From: a virus
Length of the DNA: 20,827 nucleotides
IMG/VR virus record: IMGVR_UViG_3300010151_000252
Coordinates: 1-20,827 of that record
Strand: one strand, 5' to 3'
Shown piece after piece: positions 1 to 19,604 of this stretch. A model generated the notes under the pieces. The model saw only the letters and a list, made by a program, of their open reading frames with translations, had not been told where the DNA came from and did no database searches. A program made the translations under genes and the position numbers. Position 1 is the first letter of the stretch; every line of letters begins with the position of its first letter.

Positions 1-966
1 GCTATATTTGATGTAGATACGGCTGGAAGTTTAGGGGCTTTAACTTGGGAATATCGTAAAAGTGATGATACTTGGGTAGAATTTATTCCAGCTTCTGGTA
101 GATTTTCTACAGACCCAGATGATGATGAGGGAGGACAATACGATTTTTCTGAAGATGGAGCTGAAATATTCCCAGCCAATTTATTAGTCAATTGGGCAAC
201 TCAAACTATAAATAGTGCAAATTTATATTGGGTTAGAGTAACAGCAGCTAGTGTAGCTACAGAACCTACAATTAAAAGAATTCAATGTAGACCTTTTGCT
301 ATTTATACTACCAGTAAGAATGTCTTCGAGTTGCTACAATTAAAGAATGTTACTACATCAGATGGAAGTGGAACAGACTTTACAACTTCTACTGTACCTA
401 CAAAGGAAACAGTAGAGTTTTATATTAATGAAGCCCAATCATATATTGATATGAATACTAGAAAATCATGGAGACCTAATTATGTAGTAGATGAGTATCA
501 TGAATTTAATTTAAATGGTATGAAATTAGAAATGCCAAACCCACAAAAAATAATAAGTTTAAAAATATGGAATGGAGCTAGTTGGGATTCTAAAAGTCAA
601 GGTAGAACTCAAGATTTTTTCTTTGTACCAACTACTGGTATGGTGCAATTTTCTAGATATTTCTTATTGCCAGCAAGATTTACATCTTATAATGCTCCTG
701 TATGGAGATGGGGTGGTGGTGAATTTACAATGCCTATAAAGATAACCTATTTAGCTGGTAGAGATATTAATACGGATGCCTTACAAGGTGGTATAGTTCA
801 AGAGATTGCTAAAAAAATGGCAGCTATAGATGTTGTGAGAAGTGCAGATTTTGGAAATCTAGCTGTTAGTGGTATGGATAGAGTAAGTATGAGTGAAAAA
901 GTAAATGCTTGGCAAGAAGAAATTGAAGATAGACTTGACTTCCTGACAGCATTTGAGGTATTTTAA
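1..966 (+). CDS. Head-tail connector/adaptor-like protein with N-terminal beta domain (5' partial)
   Basis: The reading frame is open from the first base of the window, with no stop before 964-966, so at least 321 residues are visible and the true start lies upstream. The TTG at 331 is only an internal codon with no Shine-Dalgarno sequence. Visible residues 1-100 look like a beta-sandwich, with W/Y-rich strands (TWEYRKSDDTWVEF, LYWVRVTAAS) typical of phage structural accessory domains. From about residue 135 the pattern changes to VEFYINEAQSYID followed by RKSW, a helix plus Trp pattern seen in gp6-type head-tail connector proteins, then alternating strands and a closing helical region with acidic residues. 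The gene abuts a probable tail-terminator gene and precedes the tail genes, which fits a neck role at the portal-tail interface. Family assignment is by pattern only; the fusion of two parts is seen directly. Confidence 0.6.
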   Translation, partial: AIFDVDTAGSLGALTWEYRKSDDTWVEFIPASGRFSTDPDDDEGGQYDFSEDGAEIFPANLLVNWATQTINSANLYWVRVTAASVATEPTIKRIQCRPFAIYTTSKNVFELLQLKNVTTSDGSGTDFTTSTVPTKETVEFYINEAQSYIDMNTRKSWRPNYVVDEYHEFNLNGMKLEMPNPQKIISLKIWNGASWDSKSQGRTQDFFFVPTTGMVQFSRYFLLPARFTSYNAPVWRWGGGEFTMPIKITYLAGRDINTDALQGGIVQEIAKKMAAIDVVRSADFGNLAVSGMDRVSMSEKVNAWQEEIEDRLDFLTAFEVF

Positions 967-1416
967 ATGCCAGCAGAACCAAGACCTGTTAATGAATTTT
1001 TTACTGATTTAGAAGACCAATGGACATTTAGTAATGTCTCTGGTACATCAGCAAAGCCAGCATTTGTAGAAGTTACAGGTGCTGATGAACCTATGAGGTT
1101 TGATTTAAATGTGAACGACCATTTCGTAGGTAGAGCTGGAAACCCAGCTATGGAAGAACAGCCTATAGGTAATTGGAAATACGGTAATAGAATGTATAAT
1201 ATAGAGATAGAAGTCTATACTTTAACTAATAGAAATAGATTATATGACTTAATGAGAGAGCTTAGAAGAATATGCCATAAAAGAATGCATAGTCTAACAA
1301 GCTTTCAACGTATACAATTTCAAAATTTTCAAGAACTAACTCAGGAACAAGCTAACATCTGGGCTGGTACAATTAATATAGAGTTAGTAAATAACGCAGT
1401 TTTATTAGAAACTTAG
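967..1416 (+). CDS. Probable tail terminator/tail completion protein
   Basis: 149-residue protein starting at the ATG directly after the upstream stop codon; a GAGGT Shine-Dalgarno lies about 7 bases before the start. The sequence has a mixed alpha/beta layout: strands around NIEIEVYTL, a basic helix with RLYDLMRELRRICHKR, and a final strand pair with W-x-G-x-INIELV. Size, the helix between strands and the terminal W-G-x-I-x-I-E pattern resemble tail terminator (gpU-like) and related neck proteins that cap the tail tube and join it to the head. The position between a connector gene and the tail-tube gene is where such proteins are encoded. No single diagnostic motif is present, so the function rests mainly on gene order and general shape. 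Confidence 0.5.
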   Translation: MPAEPRPVNEFFTDLEDQWTFSNVSGTSAKPAFVEVTGADEPMRFDLNVNDHFVGRAGNPAMEEQPIGNWKYGNRMYNIEIEVYTLTNRNRLYDLMRELRRICHKRMHSLTSFQRIQFQNFQELTQEQANIWAGTINIELVNNAVLLET

Positions 1417-1427
1417 AGTACAAATAG

Positions 1428-1438
1428 TATAATATAAT
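1428..1438 (+). promoter_or_regulatory. Possible -10 element upstream of the tail-tube gene
   Basis: The 47-base gap before the tail-tube gene holds two overlapping TATAAT hexamers (1428-1433 and 1433-1438), followed by a GGAGGA ribosome binding site. There is no good -35 box: TTAGAA sits 17 bases upstream of the first hexamer and matches only half of TTGACA. It could be an activator- or phage-sigma-dependent late promoter for an abundantly needed tail protein, or simply chance in an AT-rich gap. Confidence 0.25.
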
Positions 1439-1463
1439 AGACTGAAATTTATGGAGGAATAAT

Positions 1464-3356
1464 ATGGCAATTTATAGGTCTGACCAAGCGAGTGTGACTT
1501 TCGGAGCTGAAGCAGCTCAAGGAGCTTATCCTGAGTATGCAGATATAGGTGGGAGTCCAACTGATACAAATTTAGGACATTTAGCTATTACTGCTGGAGA
1601 TAAAACTGTAACATTATCAGCAGCACTTACTACAAGTGTTTTATCTGGTGGAGCGAACCTTAAATGTCTTATTATTATAGGTAATCATGGAACAGTTGCT
1701 GGGCGACCTAATACTGGCCCTAAAGAAGTTCGTAGAGTAGTGGGAGGTTTCGGTTCTACTACTATAACAGTAGATGCTCCTTTTGCTTTTAATCATATTG
1801 CAACTACAAGTGATGCTTCCGACAATAGTGTATATGCTAAAGTTATAGCAGCAGATGGTTCAGCAGATAGTCTAACAGATGATAATGCTGGAAAGTTTGC
1901 AACATGGTTGCCCGGAATTTATGAGTCAGTCGATTGCCCTGACCCAGAACAAGCCTTTGAACCAAGATATATTCTAGGTGGATTAACAAACCGTAATTTC
2001 TATCAGATGTATGCTGGACAAGAGACTTTAACTGGTTCTCTTGCTGGAATGGTTATGTTAAATGGATTTCCTCTTAGATTTGCTATGGGTAAAGTTGTAA
2101 CTGTACCAGTAACTGCATCTACAACTAGTAGACAACTACAAGGTACTGCTAATAAAGGAGATATTACAGTTAATATTAAATCTCAAAGTGGTGCATGGGC
2201 TGCTGGAGATTATATGGTATTTGGAAATAATACTAGTACATGCCCTAATGATGAATTTTACACTAATGGAGGAACTCAAAGACCTGATGGGGATACCTTA
2301 AATTATGAAGTAAGGCAGATTATGGAAGCTATTCCTAGTGCAGGACAAAATGAGATTGTTTCATTAAATTACCCATTACAATTTGGTCATAAGCTTAATG
2401 ATTATGTCTTTAAAATTGCTGCTGCTGGTGTAACTGCTGGTACTGAGAGATTTAAACACACTATACTAGAAGCTGTAGTTCTGCCTTCATTAACATGGAA
2501 TGTTTCAGTATTAGATGATAGTGGTTCTAATATATGGCAACGAAGATATATTGGTGGAAAAGTAGGAAATATGACATTAGGTGCTGAACAGGGAGGCTTA
2601 TTAACAGGTGGATGGGAAGGAGTTAATTTCTTAGATATGCTACATAATCAGAAAACTCATCCAAATATGCCAGCCAATCAACCTATGCCTAGATATGCAG
2701 CTATGCAAGAAATAACTACTAGTAATGTAGGTAGACCAACATACAGTAGTAGTTCATCTGATGGATATAGGTCTTTTACTAGACCTACTACATCACCTTA
2801 TTACTTCTCTCAGGGTACTCTTAAAATGTTTGATAGTACAACTGATGCAAGTTCTGGTGGTACAGCTATTAAAGAAGTAGGGAGATTATTAAATTTTAGT
2901 ATATCTATGGGAAATACTGCTGAACCTAGATATTATGTAGGACAACAATATGATGGACGTAGAGGGCCAAAAGAAATATTTGAAGGTCAAAGAGAGTATT
3001 CAATGTCAGCTACAGTAGCTACAGATGATTCAGTAAATAATGAAACATCAGATACAACAAACGTATTTAAAGAATTATTACTAGCTGGAGACTATAGAAC
3101 AACAGCAGGAGGATTTAAAGGATTTGGACTAAATTTGAAATTTATAAGAGATTCAGGTGAAGGAACTAGTAATGATACTATGGAAATAGATATTCCTGAT
3201 GATGCTACAGCTAATATAGGTGGTAATGAACAAGGTGCTTTTATAAGGTCAGCAACACATAATATAGGAGATGATGCTCCTATACAAGCAGATTTAGATA
3301 TAGCATTTAGAAGTATGACGATTAAAATTGAGGATTATGAACCAATATACCCATAA
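1464..3356 (+). CDS. Major tail tube-type protein (630 aa)
   Basis: ATG start preceded by GGAGGA at a good distance. The protein has features of large phage tail-tube proteins: a PGIYE-x-VDCPDPEQAF stretch followed by ILGGLTNRNFYQMYAG, and a C-terminal part with YYFSQGTLKMFD, a SISMGNTAEPRYYVGQ strand pair and a GQREYSMSATVATDD strand. Length is well above the usual 150-350 residues of simple tube proteins; the excess comes partly from two similar inserted segments (about residues 45-111 and 232-309), each with a G-x-x-TV strand, a IGN/FGN turn, an EVR strand and a P-F/L-x-F-x-H end. It is followed directly by the tail assembly chaperone pair, as expected for a tail tube gene. There is no neighbouring sheath gene, which argues for a long non-contractile tail. 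Tube identity is by pattern and synteny. Confidence 0.6.
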   Translation: MAIYRSDQASVTFGAEAAQGAYPEYADIGGSPTDTNLGHLAITAGDKTVTLSAALTTSVLSGGANLKCLIIIGNHGTVAGRPNTGPKEVRRVVGGFGSTTITVDAPFAFNHIATTSDASDNSVYAKVIAADGSADSLTDDNAGKFATWLPGIYESVDCPDPEQAFEPRYILGGLTNRNFYQMYAGQETLTGSLAGMVMLNGFPLRFAMGKVVTVPVTASTTSRQLQGTANKGDITVNIKSQSGAWAAGDYMVFGNNTSTCPNDEFYTNGGTQRPDGDTLNYEVRQIMEAIPSAGQNEIVSLNYPLQFGHKLNDYVFKIAAAGVTAGTERFKHTILEAVVLPSLTWNVSVLDDSGSNIWQRRYIGGKVGNMTLGAEQGGLLTGGWEGVNFLDMLHNQKTHPNMPANQPMPRYAAMQEITTSNVGRPTYSSSSSDGYRSFTRPTTSPYYFSQGTLKMFDSTTDASSGGTAIKEVGRLLNFSISMGNTAEPRYYVGQQYDGRRGPKEIFEGQREYSMSATVATDDSVNNETSDTTNVFKELLLAGDYRTTAGGFKGFGLNLKFIRDSGEGTSNDTMEIDIPDDATANIGGNEQGAFIRSATHNIGDDAPIQADLDIAFRSMTIKIEDYEPIYP

Positions 3357-3365
3357 GGAGGGAAA

Positions 3366-3773
3366 ATGACAACACAGAAAAAGAAAAGTAAAGCAGTAGG
3401 AATAGTAAAAACATTCGACCATAATAAATATCTAATTTCACATGAACCAGAAAGAAAAATAGTGGAGATAGAAGCTACTGGAGAATCGTTTGAGGTAGGT
3501 ATTAAAGCTTTATCATGGAGTAAAAGGAACCAGTTAATATCTAAAAATATGACTTGGGACAATGCAGGTAATACTTCATTTAGTGCAGATGCTTATGTTA
3601 GAGATTGTCTTAAAGAGATGATTGTAGATGCTCCTTGGGGAAGAACTACAGAAAGTCTTTTATTATCTTTTGATGAAAGAATAGGAGCAGCTTTAGAAGA
3701 CTTAGTTCCAAAAGCTTTTGGTACAGATGATACTGATGAGAATACTGTTGATGCAGTAAAAAAAGAGCTCTAG
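3366..3773 (+). CDS. Tail assembly chaperone, short form (gpG-like)
   Basis: 135-residue protein with an AAGGAGGG ribosome binding site overlapping the end of the tail-tube gene. The middle (FEVGIKALSWSKRNQL, then a helical DAYVRDCLKEMIVDAPWG and an AALEDLVPKAFG helix) resembles the G part of siphovirus tail assembly chaperones, which bind tube subunits and guide polymerisation around the tape measure. It lies between the tube and tape-measure genes, the standard location. The last codons run GTA AAA AAA GAG before a TAG stop, so the heptamer A AAA AAA at 3758-3764 lets a fraction of ribosomes shift to the -1 frame and make the longer product. The acidic tail (TDDTDEN) precedes the shift site. 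The frameshift reading is strongly supported by frame geometry; chaperone identity is by context. Confidence 0.72.
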   Translation: MTTQKKKSKAVGIVKTFDHNKYLISHEPERKIVEIEATGESFEVGIKALSWSKRNQLISKNMTWDNAGNTSFSADAYVRDCLKEMIVDAPWGRTTESLLLSFDERIGAALEDLVPKAFGTDDTDENTVDAVKKEL

Positions 3774-3991
3774 TATATATGAGAGGGGTTGCTACTACCA
3801 ATGACCCCATAGAAAACTTAGTATATACTTATTGGATGACGGTAGTACAATTATTAAAAAACGGAATACCATGGGAGGCGATACAGCTCTTATCAGAAGG
3901 TGAAATTACTTTTATTATAGGAATTATTTCGGCTTTCCGACAAAAAGAAGAGGAAGACGAACAAAGAAGTATGAGTAAGCTAAAATTTTAA
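3366..3991 (+). CDS. Tail assembly chaperone, -1 frameshift fusion (gpGT-like)
   Basis: Predicted 208-residue fusion: 133 codons in the first frame through 3764, then, after a -1 slip on A AAA AAA, codons read from 3764 (R-A-L-V-Y) straight into the 70-codon downstream frame ending at the TAA at 3989-3991. There is no stop between the slip site and that frame. In lambda and many relatives the equivalent GT protein bridges tube subunits (G part) and tape measure (T part), and the ratio of the two products matters for tail assembly. The T-like part has IENLVYTYWMTVVQLL and a helical ITFIIGIISAFRQ end rich in charged residues. Use of the shift in vivo is inferred, not shown. Confidence 0.7.
3758..3764 (+). 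other. -1 programmed frameshift site (A AAA AAA)
   Basis: Seven A residues in the correct phase (X XXY YYZ with codons AAA AAA in the zero frame), three codons before the TAG stop at 3771-3773. The next open frame is exactly -1. A possible stimulatory hairpin pairs GGGG at 3785-3788 with CCCC at 3805-3808, but it starts about 20 bases downstream, farther than the usual 5-9, so its role is doubtful. The GAGCTC palindrome directly after the slip site is another weak candidate. Confidence 0.75.
3779..3991 (+). CDS. T-like C-terminal part of tail assembly chaperone
   Basis: 70-codon open frame in the -1 phase relative to the preceding gene. The ATG at 3779 has no usable ribosome binding site (the nearest purines are inside the GAGCTC sequence), so it is probably translated mainly as the C-terminal part of the frameshift fusion rather than on its own. 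The sequence is helical, with a W-rich segment (YTYWMTVVQLLKNGIPWEAI), a short hydrophobic helix (ITFIIGIISAF) and a charged tail (RQKEEEDEQ), as in T domains that contact the tape measure protein. The tape-measure gene follows after 16 bases. Confidence 0.6.
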   Translation: MRGVATTNDPIENLVYTYWMTVVQLLKNGIPWEAIQLLSEGEITFIIGIISAFRQKEEEDEQRSMSKLKF

Positions 3992-4007
3992 GGAGTATCG
4001 TAAATAA

Positions 4008-5660
4008 ATGGCGACTGCAACAGTAGATATATTATTAAGACGAGGAGGCCCTCCTTCTTCATCAGGACAAGGACAAGGTACTCCTGAATCAGGACAAGGT
4101 TCTCCGATAGAAGAACCTAAAGACCCACCTAAGTCTGAAAATTTAGGACAGATGTTCAAGAATCTACCTAAGTTGGTAGGAGCTGCTCTTAAAAAGACTG
4201 GAATATCTTTTGGCGTATCCTCTATGTTAAAACAGTCTCAGATATTTACTAGTACTATTGGTGTTATATTCCAGCTTTTTGGTGCTATGGTTGATGTAAT
4301 GTTAGCCCCATTAATTCCTTATGTATATCCTCTTATAGGTAAAATGGGGGGATGGATTCCTATTATAGCTAAATGGTCTGAAACAGCAGTTGATTGGCTT
4401 TTCAATGGCCCCGGTAGATTAATAGATTCTGTTAAGGGTAAAATGGCTGATGTGCAAAAGGGTTTAACTGATTGGCTCTCTCAAGGGTTTACTGATTTAA
4501 TTACAGATATAGGAAGTGCTATATCAACTTCTGCTTCATGGGTATGGGAACAAATAAAAGGTGCTTGGGAGACAGCAAAAGGACTCATACAATCTGTACC
4601 TCAAATAGTATGGCAAGGTATAGCTAGTTCTCTTAGTATGCATATGATTACAATTGGTAAATGGTGGGTACATCTTAAAGGTTTCCTTCCTAAATTGTTA
4701 TCTGGAACTGGTAAATTAGGTTTCTATCTTATTAAAGGAGCAGTTAAACTTTTAGCTAAATTTCTATTAGGCCCTTTTTATCCAGTAATTAAATTATTAG
4801 GAGGTATTGTTGGTAAGATATTAAAAATTGGTGGTAAAGTTCTAAAATTTGTTCTTGGTACGGTATGGACTAAACTTAAAAATTGGATTCTTAGACCTAT
4901 TTGGAATAAGATATCACAGCTAGGTGGTTGGATATGGACGAAAATTGAACCTGCTGTAACCGGCATTAAAAATTTTATCGCAAGATGGGCTTCGAAAATA
5001 GGGAATACTCTTACTAAGTATATAATAGACCCTTTACTGAATCTTGTCTTAAAATTTGCAAGACCCCTCTTTACAGCCCTCTCTAAGATACCTATGATAG
5101 GGAAAGGTTTTAAAGCAGTTCTTCCAGTACTTGACGATGCAAAAGCTTTGAGAGGTGCTGCGACAAGACTAGTAAAGCAAGGAGGAAAGGCAGCTAAATA
5201 TACTAAAGCTATACCTGTTCTAGGAGCAGTAGCAACTGCTGGATTTGGAGCTTATGAAACATATAAGAACTGGAAAGAATATGGTGCAAAAGCTGGTTTA
5301 GCTACATTAGGTAAAACTGTCTTAGCAACTGGTTTAGCTGCTGGAGGTCAGACATGGGCATCTACGGCTGTGGATTTAGGTGGTACAATGGCTATAAATA
5401 AATTTTTAAAAACTAACGAAGCAAAAAGACAAGCTGCACAACAAGGTGGTAGAGGCTGGAAGGGACTAACTACTATGGAAGATACGAATACTTGGTGGGG
5501 TTCAGGTACTGGTAGTAATTTGATGGGGGGAGCAAGTGGAAGAAATTTAACTGTAGTTATTAATAGTAAGTATGAGAAATCCCAAGAGCATGTTATTGCA
5601 GATGCTAATGCCTACAATCAAATAGAGTTTGATATGGACGTTGATAATGAAACTAAATAA
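4008..5660 (+). CDS. Tape measure-like tail protein
   Basis: 550 residues; ATG is the first possible start because an in-frame TAA lies just before it. AGGAG is 12 bases upstream, a long spacing. The N-terminus is low complexity (S/G/Q/P/E-rich, residues 12-40). A hydrophobic segment (about 83-112, including VIFQLFGAMVDVMLAPLIPY) is followed by long amphipathic helical sequence rich in Trp, Lys and Gly, and by hydrophobic Ala/Gly-rich segments near 397-455. Tape measure proteins span the tail lumen, set its length and often carry membrane-active segments used in DNA delivery. Placement right after the chaperone pair and before distal-tail genes strongly supports this. At the usual about 1.5 angstrom per residue, it would predict a tail near 80 nm. 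It is short for the family. The order supports identity better than the sequence does. Confidence 0.68.
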   Translation: MATATVDILLRRGGPPSSSGQGQGTPESGQGSPIEEPKDPPKSENLGQMFKNLPKLVGAALKKTGISFGVSSMLKQSQIFTSTIGVIFQLFGAMVDVMLAPLIPYVYPLIGKMGGWIPIIAKWSETAVDWLFNGPGRLIDSVKGKMADVQKGLTDWLSQGFTDLITDIGSAISTSASWVWEQIKGAWETAKGLIQSVPQIVWQGIASSLSMHMITIGKWWVHLKGFLPKLLSGTGKLGFYLIKGAVKLLAKFLLGPFYPVIKLLGGIVGKILKIGGKVLKFVLGTVWTKLKNWILRPIWNKISQLGGWIWTKIEPAVTGIKNFIARWASKIGNTLTKYIIDPLLNLVLKFARPLFTALSKIPMIGKGFKAVLPVLDDAKALRGAATRLVKQGGKAAKYTKAIPVLGAVATAGFGAYETYKNWKEYGAKAGLATLGKTVLATGLAAGGQTWASTAVDLGGTMAINKFLKTNEAKRQAAQQGGRGWKGLTTMEDTNTWWGSGTGSNLMGGASGRNLTVVINSKYEKSQEHVIADANAYNQIEFDMDVDNETK

Positions 5661-5679
5661 GGGGGTATAAGGAGAAGGA

Positions 5680-6435
5680 ATGGCAGCACCAGAAATAGCA
5701 GTATTATTAAGAGAATGTGGGCATGATGCAGCTACAGGTTCAAAAATTCGTTATGCATTAAAATGTGATAATATATCCATCAGTTACGCCAAAACGCCTA
5801 TACAAATACCTTTACCTAAGTTATCACCACAATTGATAGATATAGGGGTCTATAGGCCTTCTGTGAGCCTGTCTGGGGTTATAGATGCTGTAGGTGGAGA
5901 CTTAGGTAACACTACAGCAGGATTTGAAGGTATGGAATCTATTTCTTATGTTAGAACAACAGGTACTGGAGGACATGCTGATGCAAGAACTTATTATGTA
6001 CCATATAAAAATCATTTAGAAAATTTTGTTACTAATTATACTTTTAGTAGTAATGCTAATCCTTTAGAAATAGAATGGGGAGATGCATCCTTTCCTGTAA
6101 ATGTATCTTATACAGCAGGAACAGCATCTCAATCAGGAATTACTATAAGTGGTGGGAGTACAACTTGGACTGATGCTATGGTTGGTAGAGAGTTTTCTTT
6201 TGATTCAACTACATCTGGTGGAGGTAAAATAGCAGTCAGAAATAGTGACACAGAAATTGAAGTTGATACATCTGCAACAGTTGGTTCAGGAACCTATAAA
6301 ATAGATAGTTATTCCACAGGAGGAGCCGTATATCAATGTGCTATTCAGCAATGTAGATTTCAAGTAGATGCCTCAAAAGAAGATAGATATACATTTAGTA
6401 TGCAGCTTGTAGTATCCAAACGACAGGACTCCTAA
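5680..6435 (+). CDS. Distal tail/baseplate-like protein with inserted beta module
   Basis: 251 residues, ATG start with AAGGAG upstream. The N-terminal (1-140) and C-terminal (210-251) parts look like a single split beta domain: SISYAKTPIQIPLPKLSPQLIDIG and RPSVSLSGVIDAVGG at the front, CAIQQCRFQVDASKEDRYTFSMQLVV at the end. This arrangement suits a distal tail or baseplate ring protein between tape measure and hub. Residues about 141-209 form a Thr/Ser/Gly-rich beta module (ITISGGSTTWTDAMVGREF, ending GSGTYKID) that interrupts the host domain and recurs in the next protein with high DNA identity. The function call comes from gene order and fold impression; the inserted module is seen directly. 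It could instead be a minor tail protein without ring function. Confidence 0.5.
   Translation: MAAPEIAVLLRECGHDAATGSKIRYALKCDNISISYAKTPIQIPLPKLSPQLIDIGVYRPSVSLSGVIDAVGGDLGNTTAGFEGMESISYVRTTGTGGHADARTYYVPYKNHLENFVTNYTFSSNANPLEIEWGDASFPVNVSYTAGTASQSGITISGGSTTWTDAMVGREFSFDSTTSGGGKIAVRNSDTEIEVDTSATVGSGTYKIDSYSTGGAVYQCAIQQCRFQVDASKEDRYTFSMQLVVSKRQDS
6100..6306 (+). repeat. Shuffled beta module, copy 1 (in distal-tail-like gene)
   Basis: About 207 bases encoding a ~70-residue module that matches 6932-7138 in the next gene. Two stretches are identical in DNA: 22 bases at 6166-6187 and 21 bases at 6284-6304. The protein core TWTDAMVG-x-EFSFD and the end GTYKI are shared. Confidence 0.85.
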
Positions 6436-6439
6436 TAAG

Positions 6440-9400
6440 ATGGCTAAAAGTAAATTACAATATATAAATACTAGTGGTAACTGGACGGATGCTAATACAG
6501 TTGATTCAGAGAATGCATTAATAAATGTAACTATAGAAGATACTATTGGAAATCCTAGATTAGCTAAGGTAACTCTTTCTAATATTGCTCTAGCTCCTTT
6601 CGGTGCTGGTAGTAATAAGTATGGCCCTCTTACTACAGTCTTTAATCCAGATAATGCAGGTGGAGGTAATACTACTGAGTCTTTTGTAAGAGTCCGTATC
6701 ATAGAAACTGAGACTAATGTAACTCTATTTGAAGGTAGAGTATATGATTATAAAGATAAGAGAGCATCTTCATATGGGCCTATAATAGAAATAACTGCTA
6801 AAGATGCTCTTGCAGAACTGTCTGAGATACCAACAGATGATAAAAGTGTGCCTATAGTAGGATTACAAGATACTACAACAGGTGCAGCATCTAACATATT
6901 AACATCTTCAGTAGTAGCTGTGGATGCAATTAATGTAACTTATACAACAGGAACGGCAGTTCAAGTAGGAAGTACTATAACTGGTTCTGGTACTACATGG
7001 ACTGATGCTATGGTTGGTACAGAGTTTTCTTTCGATGCAACCGCATCTGGTGGGGGTACAATAACGGCTAGAGCCACCAATACCAGTATCACAGTTGATA
7101 CTAGTGCTTCAGTTAGTTCAGGAACCTATAAAATAGGAGGTATTAATTCTACTGAGACATCTATAATTGTAGATAATGTCGATAGATTTGCAGCAGCCTA
7201 TGATAGTGTAACAAGTACTATACTTATTGGTTCAGAACAAATGACTATTAGTTCAATTGCTAGTAGTACTTTAACTGTTGTTCGTGGACGAAATGGAACT
7301 ACTCCTGTGGCACATGCAGATAATGCTCTCATATATGCTCTTACTTTTACTTGTGATGATGGAACTCAATTTTCAGCAGGTCAAAGAATAAAGATTGGTA
7401 GTGAAGAAATGGATATTAAATCTATTGGTGGTACTAGTAATGGTGATACTATTACATTATTAAATCGTGGAGCTAACGGTACATTTGGTAATATTGCTAA
7501 TCATGCTGATGATACTGATATAATAGGATTAGAACATAGAAGTACAATTATTAAAAAAATAATTAGAGACCCTGCTAGTAGTCCACATCATTCTAGTTTA
7601 ATGGTTGATACAGCTAATATAGTAACAGATGACCCTCAGAAGTTTGAAATATCTACTAGGAGCTTTAATAAAGATGGAATAGATACAAATTTTAATATAG
7701 ATGCTTTAGGTAAACAAGGATTAAATGTTATAAATGCTATAGCAAAAAATGAACCACATTCAAATGATGATTCTAATAGTAAGTTAAATGCTTTTGGATA
7801 TGACTATTATGTAGATTCACAATCTGATTATGTGACTGCTGGTCATATGGCAGCCCAAGATTTCAATTTTTTTAAACGAGGTACTCGTTCTAAATATAGT
7901 TCAAATACAGCCCATTTTAAGGGATTAACCGTTGAGTATGGTGATACGTTATCTACTGAAACAGGGCTTAAATATCAAATGTTACCTCAGTATAAATTTG
8001 ATAAGCCTAAAAGAGACCTATATACAGGAGCAGTAGTAAAAATAGAGCATAAAATAGAAGCTGATGGAAAAACTTCTAATAGAAATGTAGCTTTAGAATT
8101 TGAGCTAATTAAAATTACAGCTTTATCTGCTGAGTTAAAACATAAAGAGGAAAATTCTAATTCAGCTTGGGAAGGTACTAAACTTTCTAAATATAGAGGT
8201 GATGGTGTATCAACGAATGGAGCAGTTGCTAGCACTATACAAACTTCAAGTGGTGTTGTTGTAGGTCGTCTTCAATATGTAGATGGGATTTCTGGTACAT
8301 GCTATGCGTTAATTTCTTTTGAACCTGATACTGTTACAAATGCTACAATAAATACTCAAAAAAAGAATTTTGAAGCTTTATCTGGAAGTAATACTGGAAT
8401 GGAAACGTATGATGGTAGTGCTACTTTTACTTATCATGCAGAACAAGGTAGAATGAAAAAGAGGTTAGGTATAAAAAAGCCTCTTCGTATATCAGGAAAT
8501 GAAACTGAAACTAAAGATGTGGATTCTTTACGAAGAAAGATATACAATACATTAGCTCGTACTCAAACAATACATACAGATAGTCTTGTAAGAACTATAC
8601 AACCTCCATATACTTATTTTGATACTTATGCTATATCATCTACTACTACAACGGCTGTACTTGCAGACGATACTAATGGTGTAGAAGGTCTTTGCGATGC
8701 ATGGGATTATGGAGTTAGAGCAGGAATGATGTGTGCTAAAATAGATTCAAATGGTGACCAAACTGCTTATGGTACAGTAACGGCTATATACCCTCAAGCT
8801 GTTACTGAGGATGATGGGAATAATCAACAGTCAATTACTAGTAGACAAACTAATAGTACAGGGATATCAATAGACTATTTAAATACAGGTAATTTAAGTG
8901 GCTATACAGGCAGTAGTAATAAACTTCGTTTTTATATTCCTGTTAGAGCAAGTCATTATATTCGTACTAAAAATGAACAAGCTAATGTAGATGAATATCA
9001 ATTTGTTAAAAAAATAATATATACCGAAGGTATTGGTATGCAAAATACTCAATACGAAGGAACAGGAGTTGCAGCTAATCAAGCAGAAGGTTTGGGAGTA
9101 TTAACTACTGGAACTAACAAAGCTATAGCAGCAGTAGAAAATAAAACTACTAAAGAAGAGAATCCACCTATTTCTACATTACCTGTAAGGTTTGAGGGGA
9201 TTGATGCTACTAAGAATGCTAAATTTATTCCTACAGGTTATCAAACTATAACATGGACAGCAGGAAAACTTATAATTAATGAGGCAGATGTCTATCCAAT
9301 AAAATCAGGTACTACTAGTAGCTTAACTACAGATGTAGATACTATTACAAAAGTTCCAAAAATGAATAGAATTTATTTTGACCCTAATCAGAATCCAGAT

Positions 9401-10726
9401 GGTAGTGGGGATTATACATTTGAGGTAGGTTTAGAAGAGACTGTTAAAGACAATGTTAATGTTAAAAGTTTAGCTAGAGTTAGAGCATCTGATATGGGTG
9501 CTGGTGGGAGTGAAGATGATGTCTATAATAGGGCATTACTAAAAAGTTCAGTTTTAGATGGTTTAGCTATTGACCCTGCTGGCACAGATGAAGTTAAAGC
9601 ACCAGTACCTGAAGTGCAGATTACAAATCCAACTGCTAATTCAGATGGTAGTGGTGGTGTAGCTGCTCAAAATTCTGTAGTATTAAAATCAGCAGCTACT
9701 GGAACTACTAATCAAACTATACATTTCCCTCCAGCAGTAGGAACTGCTAACCAAATACTTGAAATAGCTAGTGTAACAGGAACTGTAGCGACTATGGGAT
9801 GGGCAACAGCAGGTGCAGGAGATATTACTGGAGTAACACTAACTGCTGATGATTCTGGAACTGCTGCTGATGCATCAGGAAATGTTGACCTCACTATTGC
9901 AGGAGGGACTAATATAACCACTTCTGCTACTAGCAGTACTCTTACGATTAATGGGCCAGCTATAGATGATACTCCTGTTAATGGAGAAACGGCTGAACCA
10001 ATATCATCTAATTGGGCATATGACCATCTAAATAATGCAACTGCCCATCAAGGAGCGATTCATACACATAGTAGTTCAGCTCATGCTACTGTTAATAATT
10101 TATATGTTAATAATAATATAGAACATGTAAGTGATACTAATACTTATGTAGAAATGGGAACTGATAATATAGACATAATAGTTGGTGGAACTAGAGCACT
10201 TGATTGTAATCCTATTTCTGTGGGGGGCAATGCTTATGTAGGAATTAATAGTACAGGAGATTCAGGAATGACACTTGGTGGATTAAAAGTTGGTGGAGAT
10301 TTTCATGCTACTAATGACATTTCATGTGCAGGTGACCTTTCATATGCAGGTACTCTAACTGATACATCGGATAGTAGAGTCAAAACTAATATTGTTGATT
10401 TCTCTAATGCAAATTCTTTAGCCCTTATAGATAGCTTACAACCACGAACTTTTAAGAAATTAGATGCTGATGGTAATGCTGTAGATATATTAAGATATGG
10501 ATTAGTTGCTCAAGAAGTTGAGACTGTACTAACTGGATTAAGTATAGATAAAACAAAGTCAGGCATAATAAAATTACCAGATACTGAAACAGTTGAAGTA
10601 ACAGATGACGATGGAAACACACAAACAGTTGTTAATCCTAGAAAGATAAGCTATGTGGACTTGATAGCACCTCTAATAGGTGCAATTAAAGAATTAAAAG
10701 CTAGAATAATTGCCTTAGAATCATAG
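6440..10726 (+). CDS. Baseplate hub-tail fibre fusion with C-terminal S74 intramolecular chaperone
   Basis: 1428 residues. Residues 1-135 look like a phage baseplate hub N-domain (TIEDTIGNPRLAKVTLSNI, FVRVRI, TLFEGRVYDYKDK, IEITAKDALAEL). Residues 165-233 are a beta module shared with the preceding protein. Residues about 238-300 and 301-360 are two related modules with IGSEQM/IGSEEM and RGRNGT/NRGANGT motifs. A further hub-like stretch runs to about 570, followed by a long linker and fibre region. Around 1127-1175 is a GDITGVTLTADDSG repeat-type fibre segment; H-rich sequence with H1208-T-H1210 follows, a possible metal-binding HxH as in trimeric fibres. The C-terminus (1310-1428) is a Peptidase_S74 domain: S1310-D-S-R-V-K1315 has the Ser/Lys spacing of endosialidase-type self-cleaving chaperones, then GLVAQEVE and a final coiled-coil-like helix. 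Cleavage before S1310 would release about 119 residues. Likely host recognition and tail-tip assembly. Confidence 0.78.
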   Translation: MAKSKLQYINTSGNWTDANTVDSENALINVTIEDTIGNPRLAKVTLSNIALAPFGAGSNKYGPLTTVFNPDNAGGGNTTESFVRVRIIETETNVTLFEGRVYDYKDKRASSYGPIIEITAKDALAELSEIPTDDKSVPIVGLQDTTTGAASNILTSSVVAVDAINVTYTTGTAVQVGSTITGSGTTWTDAMVGTEFSFDATASGGGTITARATNTSITVDTSASVSSGTYKIGGINSTETSIIVDNVDRFAAAYDSVTSTILIGSEQMTISSIASSTLTVVRGRNGTTPVAHADNALIYALTFTCDDGTQFSAGQRIKIGSEEMDIKSIGGTSNGDTITLLNRGANGTFGNIANHADDTDIIGLEHRSTIIKKIIRDPASSPHHSSLMVDTANIVTDDPQKFEISTRSFNKDGIDTNFNIDALGKQGLNVINAIAKNEPHSNDDSNSKLNAFGYDYYVDSQSDYVTAGHMAAQDFNFFKRGTRSKYSSNTAHFKGLTVEYGDTLSTETGLKYQMLPQYKFDKPKRDLYTGAVVKIEHKIEADGKTSNRNVALEFELIKITALSAELKHKEENSNSAWEGTKLSKYRGDGVSTNGAVASTIQTSSGVVVGRLQYVDGISGTCYALISFEPDTVTNATINTQKKNFEALSGSNTGMETYDGSATFTYHAEQGRMKKRLGIKKPLRISGNETETKDVDSLRRKIYNTLARTQTIHTDSLVRTIQPPYTYFDTYAISSTTTTAVLADDTNGVEGLCDAWDYGVRAGMMCAKIDSNGDQTAYGTVTAIYPQAVTEDDGNNQQSITSRQTNSTGISIDYLNTGNLSGYTGSSNKLRFYIPVRASHYIRTKNEQANVDEYQFVKKIIYTEGIGMQNTQYEGTGVAANQAEGLGVLTTGTNKAIAAVENKTTKEENPPISTLPVRFEGIDATKNAKFIPTGYQTITWTAGKLIINEADVYPIKSGTTSSLTTDVDTITKVPKMNRIYFDPNQNPDGSGDYTFEVGLEETVKDNVNVKSLARVRASDMGAGGSEDDVYNRALLKSSVLDGLAIDPAGTDEVKAPVPEVQITNPTANSDGSGGVAAQNSVVLKSAATGTTNQTIHFPPAVGTANQILEIASVTGTVATMGWATAGAGDITGVTLTADDSGTAADASGNVDLTIAGGTNITTSATSSTLTINGPAIDDTPVNGETAEPISSNWAYDHLNNATAHQGAIHTHSSSAHATVNNLYVNNNIEHVSDTNTYVEMGTDNIDIIVGGTRALDCNPISVGGNAYVGINSTGDSGMTLGGLKVGGDFHATNDISCAGDLSYAGTLTDTSDSRVKTNIVDFSNANSLALIDSLQPRTFKKLDADGNAVDILRYGLVAQEVETVLTGLSIDKTKSGIIKLPDTETVEVTDDDGNTQTVVNPRKISYVDLIAPLIGAIKELKARIIALES
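6932..7138 (+). repeat. Shuffled beta module, copy 2 (in hub-fibre gene)
   Basis: Second copy of the ~207-base module. The 22-base identical core is at 6998-7019 and the 21-base identical end at 7116-7136. Protein residues about 165-233 of the hub-fibre protein. Third-position differences elsewhere in the module show it is not a perfect recent duplicate. Confidence 0.85.
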
Positions 10727-11364: not shown

Positions 11365-11874
11365 ATGGAAATAGATAATACATTAGTTATTAAATGGGAG
11401 CCTAAGATTCAGAAACTACTATCCAAAACTTTTATTGTAGGAATGGATAGAGATGATATTGCTCAAGAACTTAGGATAGCCATTATTAAGGCAGCCCAAG
11501 GATTTCAAGAAGATAAAGGAGTTATATTCCATACATATCTTCATACGTCTATGGTTAATACTATTAGAACATTAATATCTAAAGGTCAAAGAATTAGAAT
11601 AGAACCTAGTTTAGAAACGTCATTAACTTTAGAGATAGTCCCTTCAGATTTATTGAAAGCTATGGAAGATTCTTCTAATACGTTTGAAAATGTAGAATTC
11701 GATGAATTAATCAACGAATTGGACTTGACAAGCATAGAAAAGCGTTTTATAATATTAAGAGTCGAAGGTATGACGATGGATGAAATTTCGGAAGATTTAA
11801 AAACATCAGCATATAAATTAAGAGATATATTGCGTGAAAAATTGGAGGGTAAAATTGAGGAACTTAAAACCTAG
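11365..11874 (+). CDS. Phage RNA polymerase sigma factor (ECF/gp55-like)
   Basis: 169 residues; ATG with AGGAGAG overlapping the end of the preceding gene. Residues 28-71 (DRDDIAQELRIAIIKAA, then GVIFHTYLHTSMVNTIRTLI) match sigma region 2, including the D-x-x-Q acidic start and the F-x-T-Y-L segment. Residues 120-162 (LTSIEKRFIILRVEGMTMDE, followed by a helix ending LRDILREKLEG) match sigma region 4, an HTH that would read a -35 element. Regions 1 and 3 are missing, as in ECF and phage late sigma factors such as T4 gp55. It would redirect host RNA polymerase, most simply to the late structural genes, none of which has a visible sigma-70 promoter. The coding sequence itself carries a perfect consensus sigma-70 promoter. 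The factor's target sequence is not identifiable here. Confidence 0.8.
   Translation: MEIDNTLVIKWEPKIQKLLSKTFIVGMDRDDIAQELRIAIIKAAQGFQEDKGVIFHTYLHTSMVNTIRTLISKGQRIRIEPSLETSLTLEIVPSDLLKAMEDSSNTFENVEFDELINELDLTSIEKRFIILRVEGMTMDEISEDLKTSAYKLRDILREKLEGKIEELKT
11725..11753 (+). promoter_or_regulatory. Consensus sigma-70 promoter inside the sigma-factor gene
   Basis: TTGACA at 11725-11730, exactly 17 bases, TATAAT at 11748-11753: both boxes match the consensus fully. Predicted start near 11760, so it would drive the small gene at 11855 and the helicase operon. It lies within coding sequence (encoding LDLTSIEKRF and following residues), so some match could come from codon content, but a full 12/12 match at ideal spacing is unlikely by chance. 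Confidence 0.6.
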
Positions 11875-15117: not shown

Positions 15118-17082
15118 ATGCTTGTAACTGAACAAAATTATAAAGATGTTGAGTTAAAACTGGCTAAAATAGATACATGGGTGGTTGATGTAGAGACTAA
15201 TGGGTTAGACCCTTTTGGTAAGAATCAAATCTGTGGTCTAGGAGTAGGGACGTTAGAAGGGGAAACATATTATTTCCCCTTCAGACATCAGCAAGGAATT
15301 AACTTACCTATAGAAATGCAAAAAAATATAATAGCTTTAGCTAATTTAAGGAAGACCTTAATAGGGTATAACTTAAAATTTGATTTACATTTCTTAGCAG
15401 CAGAAGGTTTAGAGGTTTTAAATAAAACTTTAATTGACGTTATAGTAATGGTACGTTTAACTGAACCATCTGAAGAAAAAGAGATGGGATTATCTAAAAC
15501 TATTATTCGTAGTTATGGACAAGAAGCTGCTCAATATGATATAGATACTAAAAAATATCTACGAAGTAATAAGTGGCACAAAGATTTCTCATTAGCTCCT
15601 TCAGATATATTAGGAGAGTATTGTGAAAAAGATGTAGTATGGACAACTAAGCTATATATTGATAGGTTAAATAAAATTAAAGCTACAAAACAAGAAAGGA
15701 TATTTGCTTTAGAGTGTGAATTAACTAAAGTTTTATATGAAATGGAAAATGCTGGAGTACAAATAGATACTGATTATGCAAGAAATTCTCAGGACAAAAT
15801 TCAAGAGCGACAAGAACAACTAGCTAATAAGATTTTTGATTTAGTAGGGGAATTTAACATTAATAGTACTCAACAGTTATGTGAAGTTATGAATGCTAAT
15901 GGTATATTCTCACCTCTAGAAACACCTAAAGGTGCTCAATCGTGGGGGGAAATGGCATTAGTACAGATTAATAATCCTTTTGCAGGGTTTGTTAGGCAGT
16001 ACAGAGCTTTAGGTAAGTTATTATCTACTTATCTAGAACCTTATACAGAATCACCTACAATGCATACCAATTTTTGCAATTGGGGTACATTAACAGGTAG
16101 ACTATCTTCAAGAGAACCTAATCTTCAAAACATACCTAGAAACCATTTTAAATTAAGTGATGTAGTTTTGAATGAAGAAGAACGACATATAGTTAGAGGA
16201 AGGATTAATGCTTTGATATCATCTAAAGGAGGTACAGTAAATAGTACTTTAGATGATGATGTTATAGATACTTGGGGTTTTGTGGGAGATGAATCATACG
16301 AAGAAGCAGATTCAACTCAAATAGCTGTTCGTAGACTATTTACACCACGACCAGAGTACTCATTAGTAGCTTTTGACTACTCTCAAATGGAAGTTCGTGT
16401 GTTTTTAAGCTATTTTCAGAATGAGGAAATTGAGGAATTATTAAAACAGTCGGATATAGACTTTCATGGGGAGGCTGCGAAGTTAGCTTTTAATGTAAAT
16501 GAAGAGGACAAAGGGTTTAAAGAGTTCAGACAGATGGCTAAAGCTATTACTTTTGGCACTATTTATGGAATAGGTAGTAAGAAACTAGCTGTTCAGTTAG
16601 GAATCACCCCTAAACAGGCATTAGAATACAAAAGAAAGTACTTTGCAGGGCTTAAAGGGTCTAAAGAATTCTTTGACCAAGTGGTTCAAGCTGTAACTAT
16701 TAAAGGTTTTATAAAGAATAGGTATGGAAGATTATATAGAGTACCTAAAAATTTGGGGTATAAAGGAGTAAATTACTTAGTTCAGGGTACTTCAGCAGAT
16801 ATATTGAGTGAACGAATGATAGAAGTAGCCAGTTATTTAAGAAATACTAAAAGTAGATTGCTGTTACAGGTACACGATGAAGTTATATGTGAAGTACATA
16901 AGGATGACCTTAAAACAGTACCTCATAAGATTAAAGAATTGATGGAAATAAACAGTTTAGATATTCCCTTATATGTTGATATGGAATTCTGTAATCCTTC
17001 ATGGGCAAATAAGATAGATTTTGAAAAACCCTTGACAGAAGATAAAGAAGATGATATAGTAGATTATATAGATTGGAATTAG
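15118..17082 (+). CDS. polA: Family A DNA polymerase with 3'-5' exonuclease
   Basis: 654 residues, no 5'-3' exonuclease domain, as usual in phages. Exonuclease motifs: Exo I D24-V-E26-T-N-G, Exo II N85-L-K-F-D89, Exo III Y168-C-E-K-D172, all intact. Polymerase motifs: GRLSSREPNLQNIPR (to R341), motif A D420-Y-S-Q-M-E-V-R-V, motif B R471-x3-K475-x3-F479-G-T-I-Y483-G, motif C Q-V-H586-D587-E588. F479 aligns with E. coli Pol I Phe762, the wild-type form. Between R341 and R405 there is an extra segment of about 50 residues not present in E. coli Pol I (NALISSKGGTVNSTLDDD and neighbours). Start ATG is 5 bases after the SSB stop without a clear ribosome binding site, so translation may be coupled. 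It is the phage replicative polymerase. Confidence 0.93.
   Translation: MLVTEQNYKDVELKLAKIDTWVVDVETNGLDPFGKNQICGLGVGTLEGETYYFPFRHQQGINLPIEMQKNIIALANLRKTLIGYNLKFDLHFLAAEGLEVLNKTLIDVIVMVRLTEPSEEKEMGLSKTIIRSYGQEAAQYDIDTKKYLRSNKWHKDFSLAPSDILGEYCEKDVVWTTKLYIDRLNKIKATKQERIFALECELTKVLYEMENAGVQIDTDYARNSQDKIQERQEQLANKIFDLVGEFNINSTQQLCEVMNANGIFSPLETPKGAQSWGEMALVQINNPFAGFVRQYRALGKLLSTYLEPYTESPTMHTNFCNWGTLTGRLSSREPNLQNIPRNHFKLSDVVLNEEERHIVRGRINALISSKGGTVNSTLDDDVIDTWGFVGDESYEEADSTQIAVRRLFTPRPEYSLVAFDYSQMEVRVFLSYFQNEEIEELLKQSDIDFHGEAAKLAFNVNEEDKGFKEFRQMAKAITFGTIYGIGSKKLAVQLGITPKQALEYKRKYFAGLKGSKEFFDQVVQAVTIKGFIKNRYGRLYRVPKNLGYKGVNYLVQGTSADILSERMIEVASYLRNTKSRLLLQVHDEVICEVHKDDLKTVPHKIKELMEINSLDIPLYVDMEFCNPSWANKIDFEKPLTEDKEDDIVDYIDWN
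17032..17060 (+). promoter_or_regulatory. Near-consensus sigma-70 promoter ahead of the SET-domain gene
   Basis: TTGACA at 17032-17037, 17-base spacer, TATAGT at 17055-17060 (5 of 6), inside the last codons of the polymerase gene; predicted start near 17067. Next is AGGAGG (17086-17091) and the SET-domain gene. It shares CTTGACAGAAGATAA with the site at 11902. Confidence 0.5.
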
Positions 17083-17100
17083 ATTAGGAGGTATGAAGAT

Positions 17101-17424
17101 ATGTACAAACCATTACCAGACACGCTTAGTGTAGGAAGGTCAGAGATAGAAGGATTAGGATTATTTGTTGTAGAAGAAATTCCTGTTGGAACTACATTAG
17201 GTATAACTCATGTAGAGAATAAAGAATTTGAGAATGGTTGGATTAGAACCCCTCTTGGAGGATTCTATAACCATTCAGATACACCTAATTGTAAGTTAGA
17301 GACAAAATACTTAGAAACAGTAGAAGTAAAAGAATTATATACTTTAAAAGATTTAAAGTTAGGTGATGAGATAACTTGTGTATATACCATATGGGATATA
17401 GAAAAGGATTTAGCTGATGGATAA
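17101..17424 (+). CDS. SET-domain protein (putative lysine methyltransferase)
   Basis: 107 residues. Characteristic SET motifs occur in order: S14-E-I-E-G-L-G-L-F (start of the domain, the GxG turn that contacts S-adenosylmethionine), GGFYNHSDTPNC at 53-64 (the conserved N-H-S-x-x-P-N-C signature), and LKLGDEITCVY at 85-95 with Y95 at the catalytic tyrosine position. Such domains normally transfer methyl groups from SAM to lysine side chains of proteins. The protein is a minimal SET domain without pre- or post-SET cysteine clusters, similar in size to the viral vSET of chloroviruses. The substrate is unknown; host or phage proteins binding DNA are possible targets. The gene has AGGAGG upstream, a promoter-like site before it, and overlaps the next gene by 8 bases. 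Confidence 0.8.
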   Translation: MYKPLPDTLSVGRSEIEGLGLFVVEEIPVGTTLGITHVENKEFENGWIRTPLGGFYNHSDTPNCKLETKYLETVEVKELYTLKDLKLGDEITCVYTIWDIEKDLADG

Positions 17425-17704
17425 AGAAATTAGTGAATGGGTATCTGAATTCAATGAAGAGGCCTTGTTTGCAGATGGGTTTGAGGATGCTTTTGTAGGA
17501 GTAATAGAAAGATTTGGACAAGACCCTATTGCTGTATATGATAGAGAGAAATGTATAGCAATTCTTATGGAACAATTTGATGATGATAATGACGAAGAAA
17601 GAGATTTATATGAAGAAGCAGAAGACTATTTTGGTTATAATGTAATAGGGTCATGGGTAGGAGAAGGTACTCCAGCATTTATTACTAGATATGAAAAAGA
17701 ATAA
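17417..17704 (+). CDS. Acidic conserved-type phage hypothetical protein
   Basis: 95 residues, very acidic, overlapping the SET gene by 8 bases, which suggests translational coupling. The sequence has a pattern I have seen in many phage hypotheticals: FNEEALFADGFEDAFVG, AVYDREKCIAILM, then EEAEDYFGYNVIGSWVGEGTPAF. No enzymatic motif is evident. Its acidity and size would suit a protein that mimics DNA or binds a basic partner, but that is speculation. Confidence 0.7.
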   Translation: MDKEISEWVSEFNEEALFADGFEDAFVGVIERFGQDPIAVYDREKCIAILMEQFDDDNDEERDLYEEAEDYFGYNVIGSWVGEGTPAFITRYEKE

Positions 17705-18340: not shown

Positions 18341-19287
18341 AGAACTCTGCTGAAGAAGTCATACAAGACTTATTAAAAAGTACTAAACTTAATATACAAA
18401 GAGGGTCAGATGATGCGTTTATGTATAGTCGTATCCCTTTTGGAATACCAGCATTAGATGATTTAACTGGTGGAGGTATACCAAAGAAGCGAATGACTAT
18501 TCTATATGGCCCTACTAACGTAGGTAAATCATATCTAGCTTCACAGATAGTAGTTAATACCCAAAAAGAAGGGGGTACTGCTGCTTGGATAGATACAGAA
18601 CTATCATGGGATAGTGCATGGATGTCTAAATGTGGGGTGGATGTAGATAATACTTTAGTATCTCAACCTGTAAATGGTGAAGAAGCTATGGATATTATTA
18701 AAGAACTAATGCAGGTAGGTATAGATGTTATAGTATTAGACAGTATAGCAGGTTTAGTACCCACAGCAGTAGTACAAGAAGAGTTTTCTTATAATCCTAT
18801 GGCATGGCAAGCTAGATTTGTAAATTCAGCTCTGCCTAAAATTCTACCCAATCTAAAAATGGGGTCAGCATTTGTAGCCATAAATCAAGTACGAAGTAGT
18901 ATTGGGCCAGTAGCATTAGATAATATGCCCGGAGGATTAGCTCAAGCATTCTTTGCCCATTTCTTATTACAAGTACGAAGACAGGGCTGGTTAGAAGAGA
19001 TGAGAGGTAAGACTAAAACTAAAGTAGGATTTGATATGGAGGTTAGAGTACGCAAAACCAAAGTTGGTGGAGAGAATTGGGATTCTGCCGTAGTACCATT
19101 CAGAGTAGAAGGAGGAATTGATATAGTAGAAAGTTTTATTAGAGAAGCTATAGAGAAGAAAGTGATTACTCAAGCTGGAGCATGGTATACTTATGAAGGA
19201 GAGAAGGTTATGGGATTGAATGGGATTAAGAGTTTGTTTATAGATAACCCTAATAAGTTTGAAGCTCTACAAAAAGCTGTAGTATGA
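18337..19287 (+). CDS. recA: RecA-family recombinase
   Basis: 316 residues. Walker A G58-P-T-N-V-G-K64-S65, catalytic glutamate region W-I-D-T-E88 (equivalent to E96 of E. coli RecA), Walker B I-D-V-I-V-L-D135-S, and the ATP-sensing/L2 start F-V-A-I-N-Q184-V-R (equivalent to Q194) are all present. The C-terminal part AGAWYTYEGEKVMG matches the conserved end of bacterial RecA. Length is near bacterial RecA minus its acidic tail, and similarity is closer to RecA than to T4 UvsX by eye. It promotes strand exchange in recombination-dependent replication and repair of phage DNA. It overlaps the preceding gene and the next nuclease gene by 4 bases each, suggesting coupled translation. Confidence 0.9.
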   Translation: MKNSAEEVIQDLLKSTKLNIQRGSDDAFMYSRIPFGIPALDDLTGGGIPKKRMTILYGPTNVGKSYLASQIVVNTQKEGGTAAWIDTELSWDSAWMSKCGVDVDNTLVSQPVNGEEAMDIIKELMQVGIDVIVLDSIAGLVPTAVVQEEFSYNPMAWQARFVNSALPKILPNLKMGSAFVAINQVRSSIGPVALDNMPGGLAQAFFAHFLLQVRRQGWLEEMRGKTKTKVGFDMEVRVRKTKVGGENWDSAVVPFRVEGGIDIVESFIREAIEKKVITQAGAWYTYEGEKVMGLNGIKSLFIDNPNKFEALQKAVV

Positions 19288-19604
19288 ACATAACACCCAA
19301 AGATTATACATCTCAAGAGAATATAATAGCTGAATGTTTATCTGAATTTGGTATGAGATATGCTCAACAGTATGAGATTTCCCCATATACAGTAGATTTT
19401 TATATTCCTGATATAGGAACTATAATAGAAGCTGATGGAAAATATGGACATCTACAGAAAAGAGACAGAAAAAGAGATTGTTATCTATCAAATCAAAAAG
19501 GGATAGAGTATATTCTACATATTAAAGAATATACAAAAGAAAAGATAAAGGAGCAAGTATGGCAGGAATTAAACAAATTAGCAGTATACCAACCAAACAA
19601 CTAA
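19284..19604 (+). CDS. Vsr/DUF559-like PD-(D/E)XK endonuclease
   Basis: 106 residues, starting in the ATGA overlap with recA. A compact nuclease core is visible: E12 in the first helix, Y30-E-I-S-P-Y-T-V-D38-F-Y-I-P, then I-I-E49-A-D51-G-x-x-G-H56, followed by R60-D-R-K-R-D65. This arrangement matches small single-domain nucleases related to Vsr mismatch endonucleases and DUF559 proteins, with D38 and E49-x-D51 as likely metal ligands. Some such genes are free-standing phage homing or repair nucleases. Being inside the recombination operon suggests a repair or DNA-processing job rather than homing, but specificity cannot be read. It overlaps the following gene by 46 bases. Confidence 0.65.
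   Translation: MNITPKDYTSQENIIAECLSEFGMRYAQQYEISPYTVDFYIPDIGTIIEADGKYGHLQKRDRKRDCYLSNQKGIEYILHIKEYTKEKIKEQVWQELNKLAVYQPNN

Follow-up and report, generated by a model that had tools for sequence, protein, structure and literature searches.

SET enzymes are textbook chromatin modifiers, and most of those known methylate lysine on proteins. vSET (A612L), from the chlorella virus PBCV-1, is a minimal SET domain of viral origin, about 110-120 aa long and bordered by short flanks. It is an H3K27 methyltransferase that works as a dimer, and it shows that small flanks can suffice for a SET protein-lysine methyltransferase. The SET fold also occurs without a canonical active site, as in PR domains. 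In bacteria, the 172-aa SET enzyme BurB is a methionine S-methyltransferase that turns free methionine into S-methylmethionine, and it is a proven small-molecule SET enzyme (PMC7496086, PMC12542666). BurB contacts SAM through His72 and His93, which are 21 residues apart, and it keeps >60% of its activity when its Tyr is replaced with Phe (PMC12542666). Regarding phages, ORF62 of phage Ps15 is annotated as having a SET domain (PMC9025141), and our literature search found no study of a phage SET enzyme. Here we describe a compact, strongly conserved SET family whose carriers are marine viruses, numbering at least in the hundreds, together with part of SAR11 and some marine Flavobacteria, organisms without eukaryotic histones.

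A small SET gene in an uncultured viral fragment

The window (the whole stretch of DNA that was analysed) comprises 20,827 bases and is a fragment from an uncultured virus. Its left part contains tail genes (a tape measure and a large tail protein with an S74 chaperone domain at its end), and its right part a sigma-like gene, a DnaB-like helicase, a primase, a candidate SSB, polymerase A, the SET gene, small ORFs and a RecA/UvsX-like gene. Host assignment of this phage gave none, and its polymerase and helicase are just 24-28% identical to those of cultured phages. The SET gene and the features in and around it are the following:

15118..17082, + strand: family-A DNA polymerase with a 3'-5' exonuclease domain, the upstream neighbour (Pfam E=1.5e-74)
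17032..17060, + strand: candidate promoter motif of the sigma-70 type, TTGACA-17-TATAGT, within the polymerase gene
17086..17091, + strand: ribosome-binding site AGGAGG, 9 nt 5' of the ATG, read directly
17101..17424, + strand: SET-domain gene, 107 aa plus stop (open frame, Pfam PF00856, PHROG 28741, AlphaFold model)
17152..17160, + strand: GxG motif (G18, G20) of the predicted SAM site, aligned with the GxG of MLL SET domains (143 of 143 members)
17209..17211, + strand: His37, a family-specific residue
17245..17277, + strand: signature RTPLGGFYNHS (residues 49-59), including the putative SAM-binding NHS, which aligns with FINHS of MLL1
17383..17385, + strand: predicted catalytic Tyr95 (GDEITCVY), which aligns with the ELTYDY Tyr of MLL1
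17417..17704, + strand: downstream ORF of 95 aa, PHROG 13182 (unknown function), whose relatives lie close to SET in eight phage loci

A reading of this DNA from its sequence only had described a 107-residue ORF with the motifs NHSDTPNC and LGDEITCVY, located after the polymerase and with a candidate promoter of its own. The ORF and its position were borne out: the frame is open, it scores as a SET domain above the Pfam cut-off, and it begins 18 nt behind the stop of the family-A polymerase, and its last 8 nt are shared with the next ORF. The promoter stands in part. The motif is present, with 11 of 12 consensus positions and a TG preceding the -10, but the whole window holds three sites of this grade against 1.2 expected, so the one at 17032-17060 is suggestive only.

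Other genes of the window are also worth describing. A 169-aa ORF (11365-11874) matches sigma-70 region 2 (E=1e-8) and, weakly, region 4, and is a candidate phage sigma factor. The RecA/UvsX-like gene is adjoined by a 106-aa protein of the DUF559 type (Vsr/REase-like; 19284-19604). In the tail region, two adjacent proteins (5680-6432 and 6440-10723) have a common repeated segment (TTWTDAMVG.EFSFD...), and the S74 endosialidase-chaperone domain is the C-terminal end of the second.

Family assignment and predicted fold

The 107-aa protein matched the Pfam SET model PF00856 with E=1.3e-7 and 32.4 bits, above the gathering score of 22.4. It also matched PHROG 28741 along its full length (E=1.6e-19, residues 1-100 of 107 against positions 2-98 of 100); the phage proteins in this group are of the same size (100 aa), but the PHROG library gives them no function or SET label. 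PF00856 was matched independently by 71 of the 71 members of a diverse alignment (E<=0.01), so the SET assignment of the family is not due to chance. By profile comparison, then, the ORF is a new member of a large uncharacterised marine family, PHROG 28741. No NCBIfam model matched the window protein. Defence-system models matched neither it nor the SAR11 copy, and they did not match the product of the downstream ORF either.

The predicted SET fold is a confident one. The AlphaFold model has a pLDDT of 90.3, with the final ten residues weak, and its top Foldseek and VIA-align matches are all SET domains (PFL0690c, ASH1L, MLL1 and vSET), which makes SET lysine methyltransferases the nearest solved structures. 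Foldseek matched PFL0690c (4rz0) with E 3.5e-7, and VIA-align gave a Z of 12.2 to MLL1 (2.7 A over 95 residues). The comparison with vSET, proposed as a check in the sequence-only reading, was positive (Z 11.7, 2.7 A over 90 residues), as was the profile match between both proteins (E=1.4e-8), although their identity is of ~23% and the target of vSET, a eukaryotic histone, is absent in bacteria. MLL1/KMT2, ASH1L and PFL0690c share with the window protein the GxG, NHS..PN and ELxxxY core in register (Z up to 12.2), and in HMM alignments Tyr95 falls on the catalytic Tyr of ELTYDY, and N57-H58-S59 on the NHS, of MLL SET domains. In contrast, KMT2 and ASH1L possess a complete SET-I as well as a post-SET region, and the phage protein is without nearly all of both.

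Distribution of the family in viruses and bacteria

Among cultured phages, 11 of 50,697 records matched the family (E<=0.01). The carriers are Pelagibacter phage Kolga, cyanophages P-RSM6 and P-SSM7, a marine single-cell virus and more distant podoviral copies. In a single scan of IMG/VR, we found relatives encoded in at least 591 contigs. Hence, the rarity of SET domains in phages that had been assumed holds for cultured phages in the present family, but not for uncultured marine viruses. Two podoviral loci (L042:5431-6306 and L226:2527-3288) carry an RTPLG-type SET at the C-terminus of a longer ORF in a virion-gene region, the motif having been read directly in L042.

Bacterial genomes gave at least 227 stretches with confirmed relatives. 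In evenly drawn samples, strong matches were found in 29 of the 197 genomes from Pelagibacteraceae and in 14 of the 299 from Flavobacteriaceae, and 1 of 398 Pseudomonadota genomes matched, the single one being the SAR11 centre genome itself. Some bacterial contigs (L123 and L189) are phage-like in appearance; the SAR11 copies and a copy from Formosa are chromosomal, judged by their gene context. In an unrooted tree of ~110 columns, the SAR11 copies group in a single clade (100/99), those of Flavobacteria fall into two, and all bacterial clades lie among phage sequences. This sharing with SAR11 and Flavobacteria chromosomes was out of reach for the sequence-only reading.

Conservation of the active site

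Across 143 unique full-length members, residues S14, G18, G20, G34, R49, P51, G53, N57 and H58 are invariant and H37 is present in 142, while residue 95 is Tyr, and never Phe, in the 142 members having this position. The family has a signature of its own, composed of YxPLP, G34..H37 and RTPLGGF[YI]NHS. Because most members came from a scan that used [TL]PLGGF[YI]N as its anchor, the conservation of the RTPLGGFYNHS stretch is partly imposed; G18, G20, G34, H37, E90 and Y95 are outside the anchor. The SET gene is under purifying selection, with a median dN/dS of 0.125 over 58 phage pairs, which are non-independent. The distance between H37 and the His of NHS is ~21 residues (exactly 21 for H37/H58 in 112 of the 143 members), which leaves SET-I nearly gone, and in most phage members the chain ends 5 to 15 residues past Tyr95. 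The family is thus without most of the SET-I insert and nearly everything past the catalytic Tyr.

One could argue that this is an inactive SET-like protein that only binds, as the activity of the family is predicted and PR domains are a case of the fold persisting without its canonical active site. We consider this very unlikely, given the invariant GxG, NH and Tyr95 and the purifying selection. The proposal of a minimal SET methyltransferase with its cofactor site and catalytic Tyr intact is upheld by family profiles, conservation, fold and selection alike.

Exchange of the gene between phages

The SET gene had been framed as part of a replication operon, and a survey of its neighbours in other phages had been suggested. 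We ran this survey over 58 diverse phage loci and found no recurrent partner: no PHROG was seen more than three times among 110 immediate neighbours. Likewise, no neighbour family occurred in more than 15 of 107 phage loci. The neighbours are mixed (endonuclease VII, clamp loader, thymidylate synthase, terminase and so on). In a sister phage (L049), the helicase, primase, SSB and polymerase are 69-76% identical to those of the window and the SET gene sits at the same place, yet it is ~50% identical. The closest relative of the window SET (77%) comes from a phage sharing, in the stretch compared, only the 95-aa ORF, which may partly travel with the SET gene. The gene looks to have been exchanged between phages, and the lack of a common neighbour together with differing alleles at the same place is what one would expect if it were a host-directed accessory gene. 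Its setting in a replication operon is incidental and uninformative; we find a family with a SAR11 host relative more interesting.

The gene context also bears on whether the target could be a phage protein, either from the virion or the replication machinery, whose methylation would for instance tune assembly. In podoviruses P26218 and MW202744 a SET of this kind makes up the C-terminal part of a longer ORF that lies among virion genes. In P-RSM6 the SET gene is located ahead of gp25 and a baseplate wedge gene, and in the window and L049 it follows the polymerase. However, no partner gene is kept across phages and the chromosomal copies have no phage genes around them, which makes a phage target improbable.

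Proposed activity

Our preferred reading, to which we give about an even chance, is that the protein is an active SAM-dependent methyltransferase whose target belongs to the host and is most probably a lysine amine. Being reduced to the SET core, it would bind SAM through GxG (18-20) and NHS (57-59), and an amine next to Tyr95 would meet SAM from the opposite side. The peptide-reading parts (SET-I insert and post-SET) appear nearly absent, and the acceptor site may be shaped by the YxPLP, G34..H37 and RTPLGGF surfaces, or by a dimer partner as in vSET. The acceptor amine would belong to a lysine in a host protein that is conserved across marine bacteria, a choice we favour because known SET enzymes mostly act on such lysines and Tyr95 is never Phe. 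Besides, as BurB stays largely active with Phe, a residue that is always Tyr favours amine over sulfur chemistry. Phages would carry the gene to their own benefit, as a swappable host-modifying accessory, and it may be the viral counterpart of a small SET gene in SAR11 osmolyte-catabolism operons. The loss of SET-I and post-SET and the very strict conservation on the acceptor side also fit a small-molecule substrate. The sequence-only reading had named RNA polymerase, nucleoid or ribosomal proteins of the host, or a phage protein, as possible targets; our analysis gave evidence for none of them, and a small-molecule acceptor was not on that list.

BurB is the obvious comparison for such a substrate. 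Like the present family it is a bacterial SET enzyme, and the spacing of its His72 and His93 is that of H37/H58. BurB is longer, and its C-terminal residues 130-138, which bind Met and SAM, are absent in most phage members. We take the His spacing as a lead and not as a test, since BurB was not among the matches listed for the sequence, the N-terminal-half profile, the window fold or the SAR11 fold, a result that does not disprove a link.

Chromosomal copies and their operons

The SAR11 SET proteins (142-146 aa) have the same signature as the window protein, ~45% identity to it and a place in the same family in the tree. They differ in ~36 extra residues between NHS and GDEL, in a conserved C-terminus and in being fixed in osmolyte or amine operons. 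From the gene functions predicted around them, these copies are located in operons for betaine and methylated-amine breakdown. We sampled 79 host loci, which are the best matches and come mostly from one SAR11 clade. In this sample, a GbcA-like Rieske gene lies directly 5' of SET in 57 loci, a small class-I methyltransferase at position -2 in 54, a dimethylglycine-dehydrogenase (DMGDH)-like gene in the vicinity in 59, and a DddP-like gene immediately after SET in 37; in nine, alanine dehydrogenase is followed by SET. Four SAR11 chromosomes (L151, L182, L126 and L199, at about 600-9500) show a conserved osmolyte cluster around SET, in the order OpuAC-like binding protein, BHMT-like, DMGDH-like, class-I methyltransferase, GbcA-like Rieske, SET and DddP-like M24 enzyme. 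In a Formosa MAG (L124:4659-4952), a 97-aa SET relative lies between argC and proC in an operon for arginine biosynthesis, the gene names being read from translations.

Since the chromosomal copies are in metabolite operons, a metabolite substrate has to be taken seriously. The enzyme could methylate a small molecule (a free amino acid, an osmolyte amine or a thioether) and so alter host methyl or osmolyte metabolism, which we regard as a tentative possibility. BurB provides the precedent and the matching His spacing, the SAR11 and Formosa contexts point the same way, and the short SET-I leaves little peptide groove. Against this, BurB is not among the best sequence or fold matches listed, the invariable Tyr95 favours amine over sulfur chemistry, and no osmolyte genes were recognised among the 110 neighbours of phage copies at 58 loci. 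Furthermore, the host-locus counts derive from the best 80 matches, with one clade dominating. The full form of this idea, in which a SET enzyme that marine phages have in common with the osmolyte-catabolism operons of SAR11 acts on a metabolite and not on a protein, seems rather unlikely to us. If true, viruses of the most abundant ocean bacteria would carry a new kind of auxiliary methyl-metabolism gene.

As for the preferred host-protein reading, the location of the chromosomal copies in small-molecule operons, with no obvious protein target alongside, counts against it; phage and host copies could differ in function. The substrate would reveal either a new phage modification of host proteins or a new methyl/osmolyte route in abundant ocean bacteria, and the SAR11 host operon supplies candidates that can be tested.

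SAR11 also has a second, separate SET gene of 157-163 aa (L223:3770-4243, L224:3742-4233 and L225:3897-4376). We considered it as a family member and rejected it, as its product is a more canonical SET protein, distinct from this family and equipped with a Cys-rich post-SET. This second gene seems to be widespread in Pelagibacteraceae.
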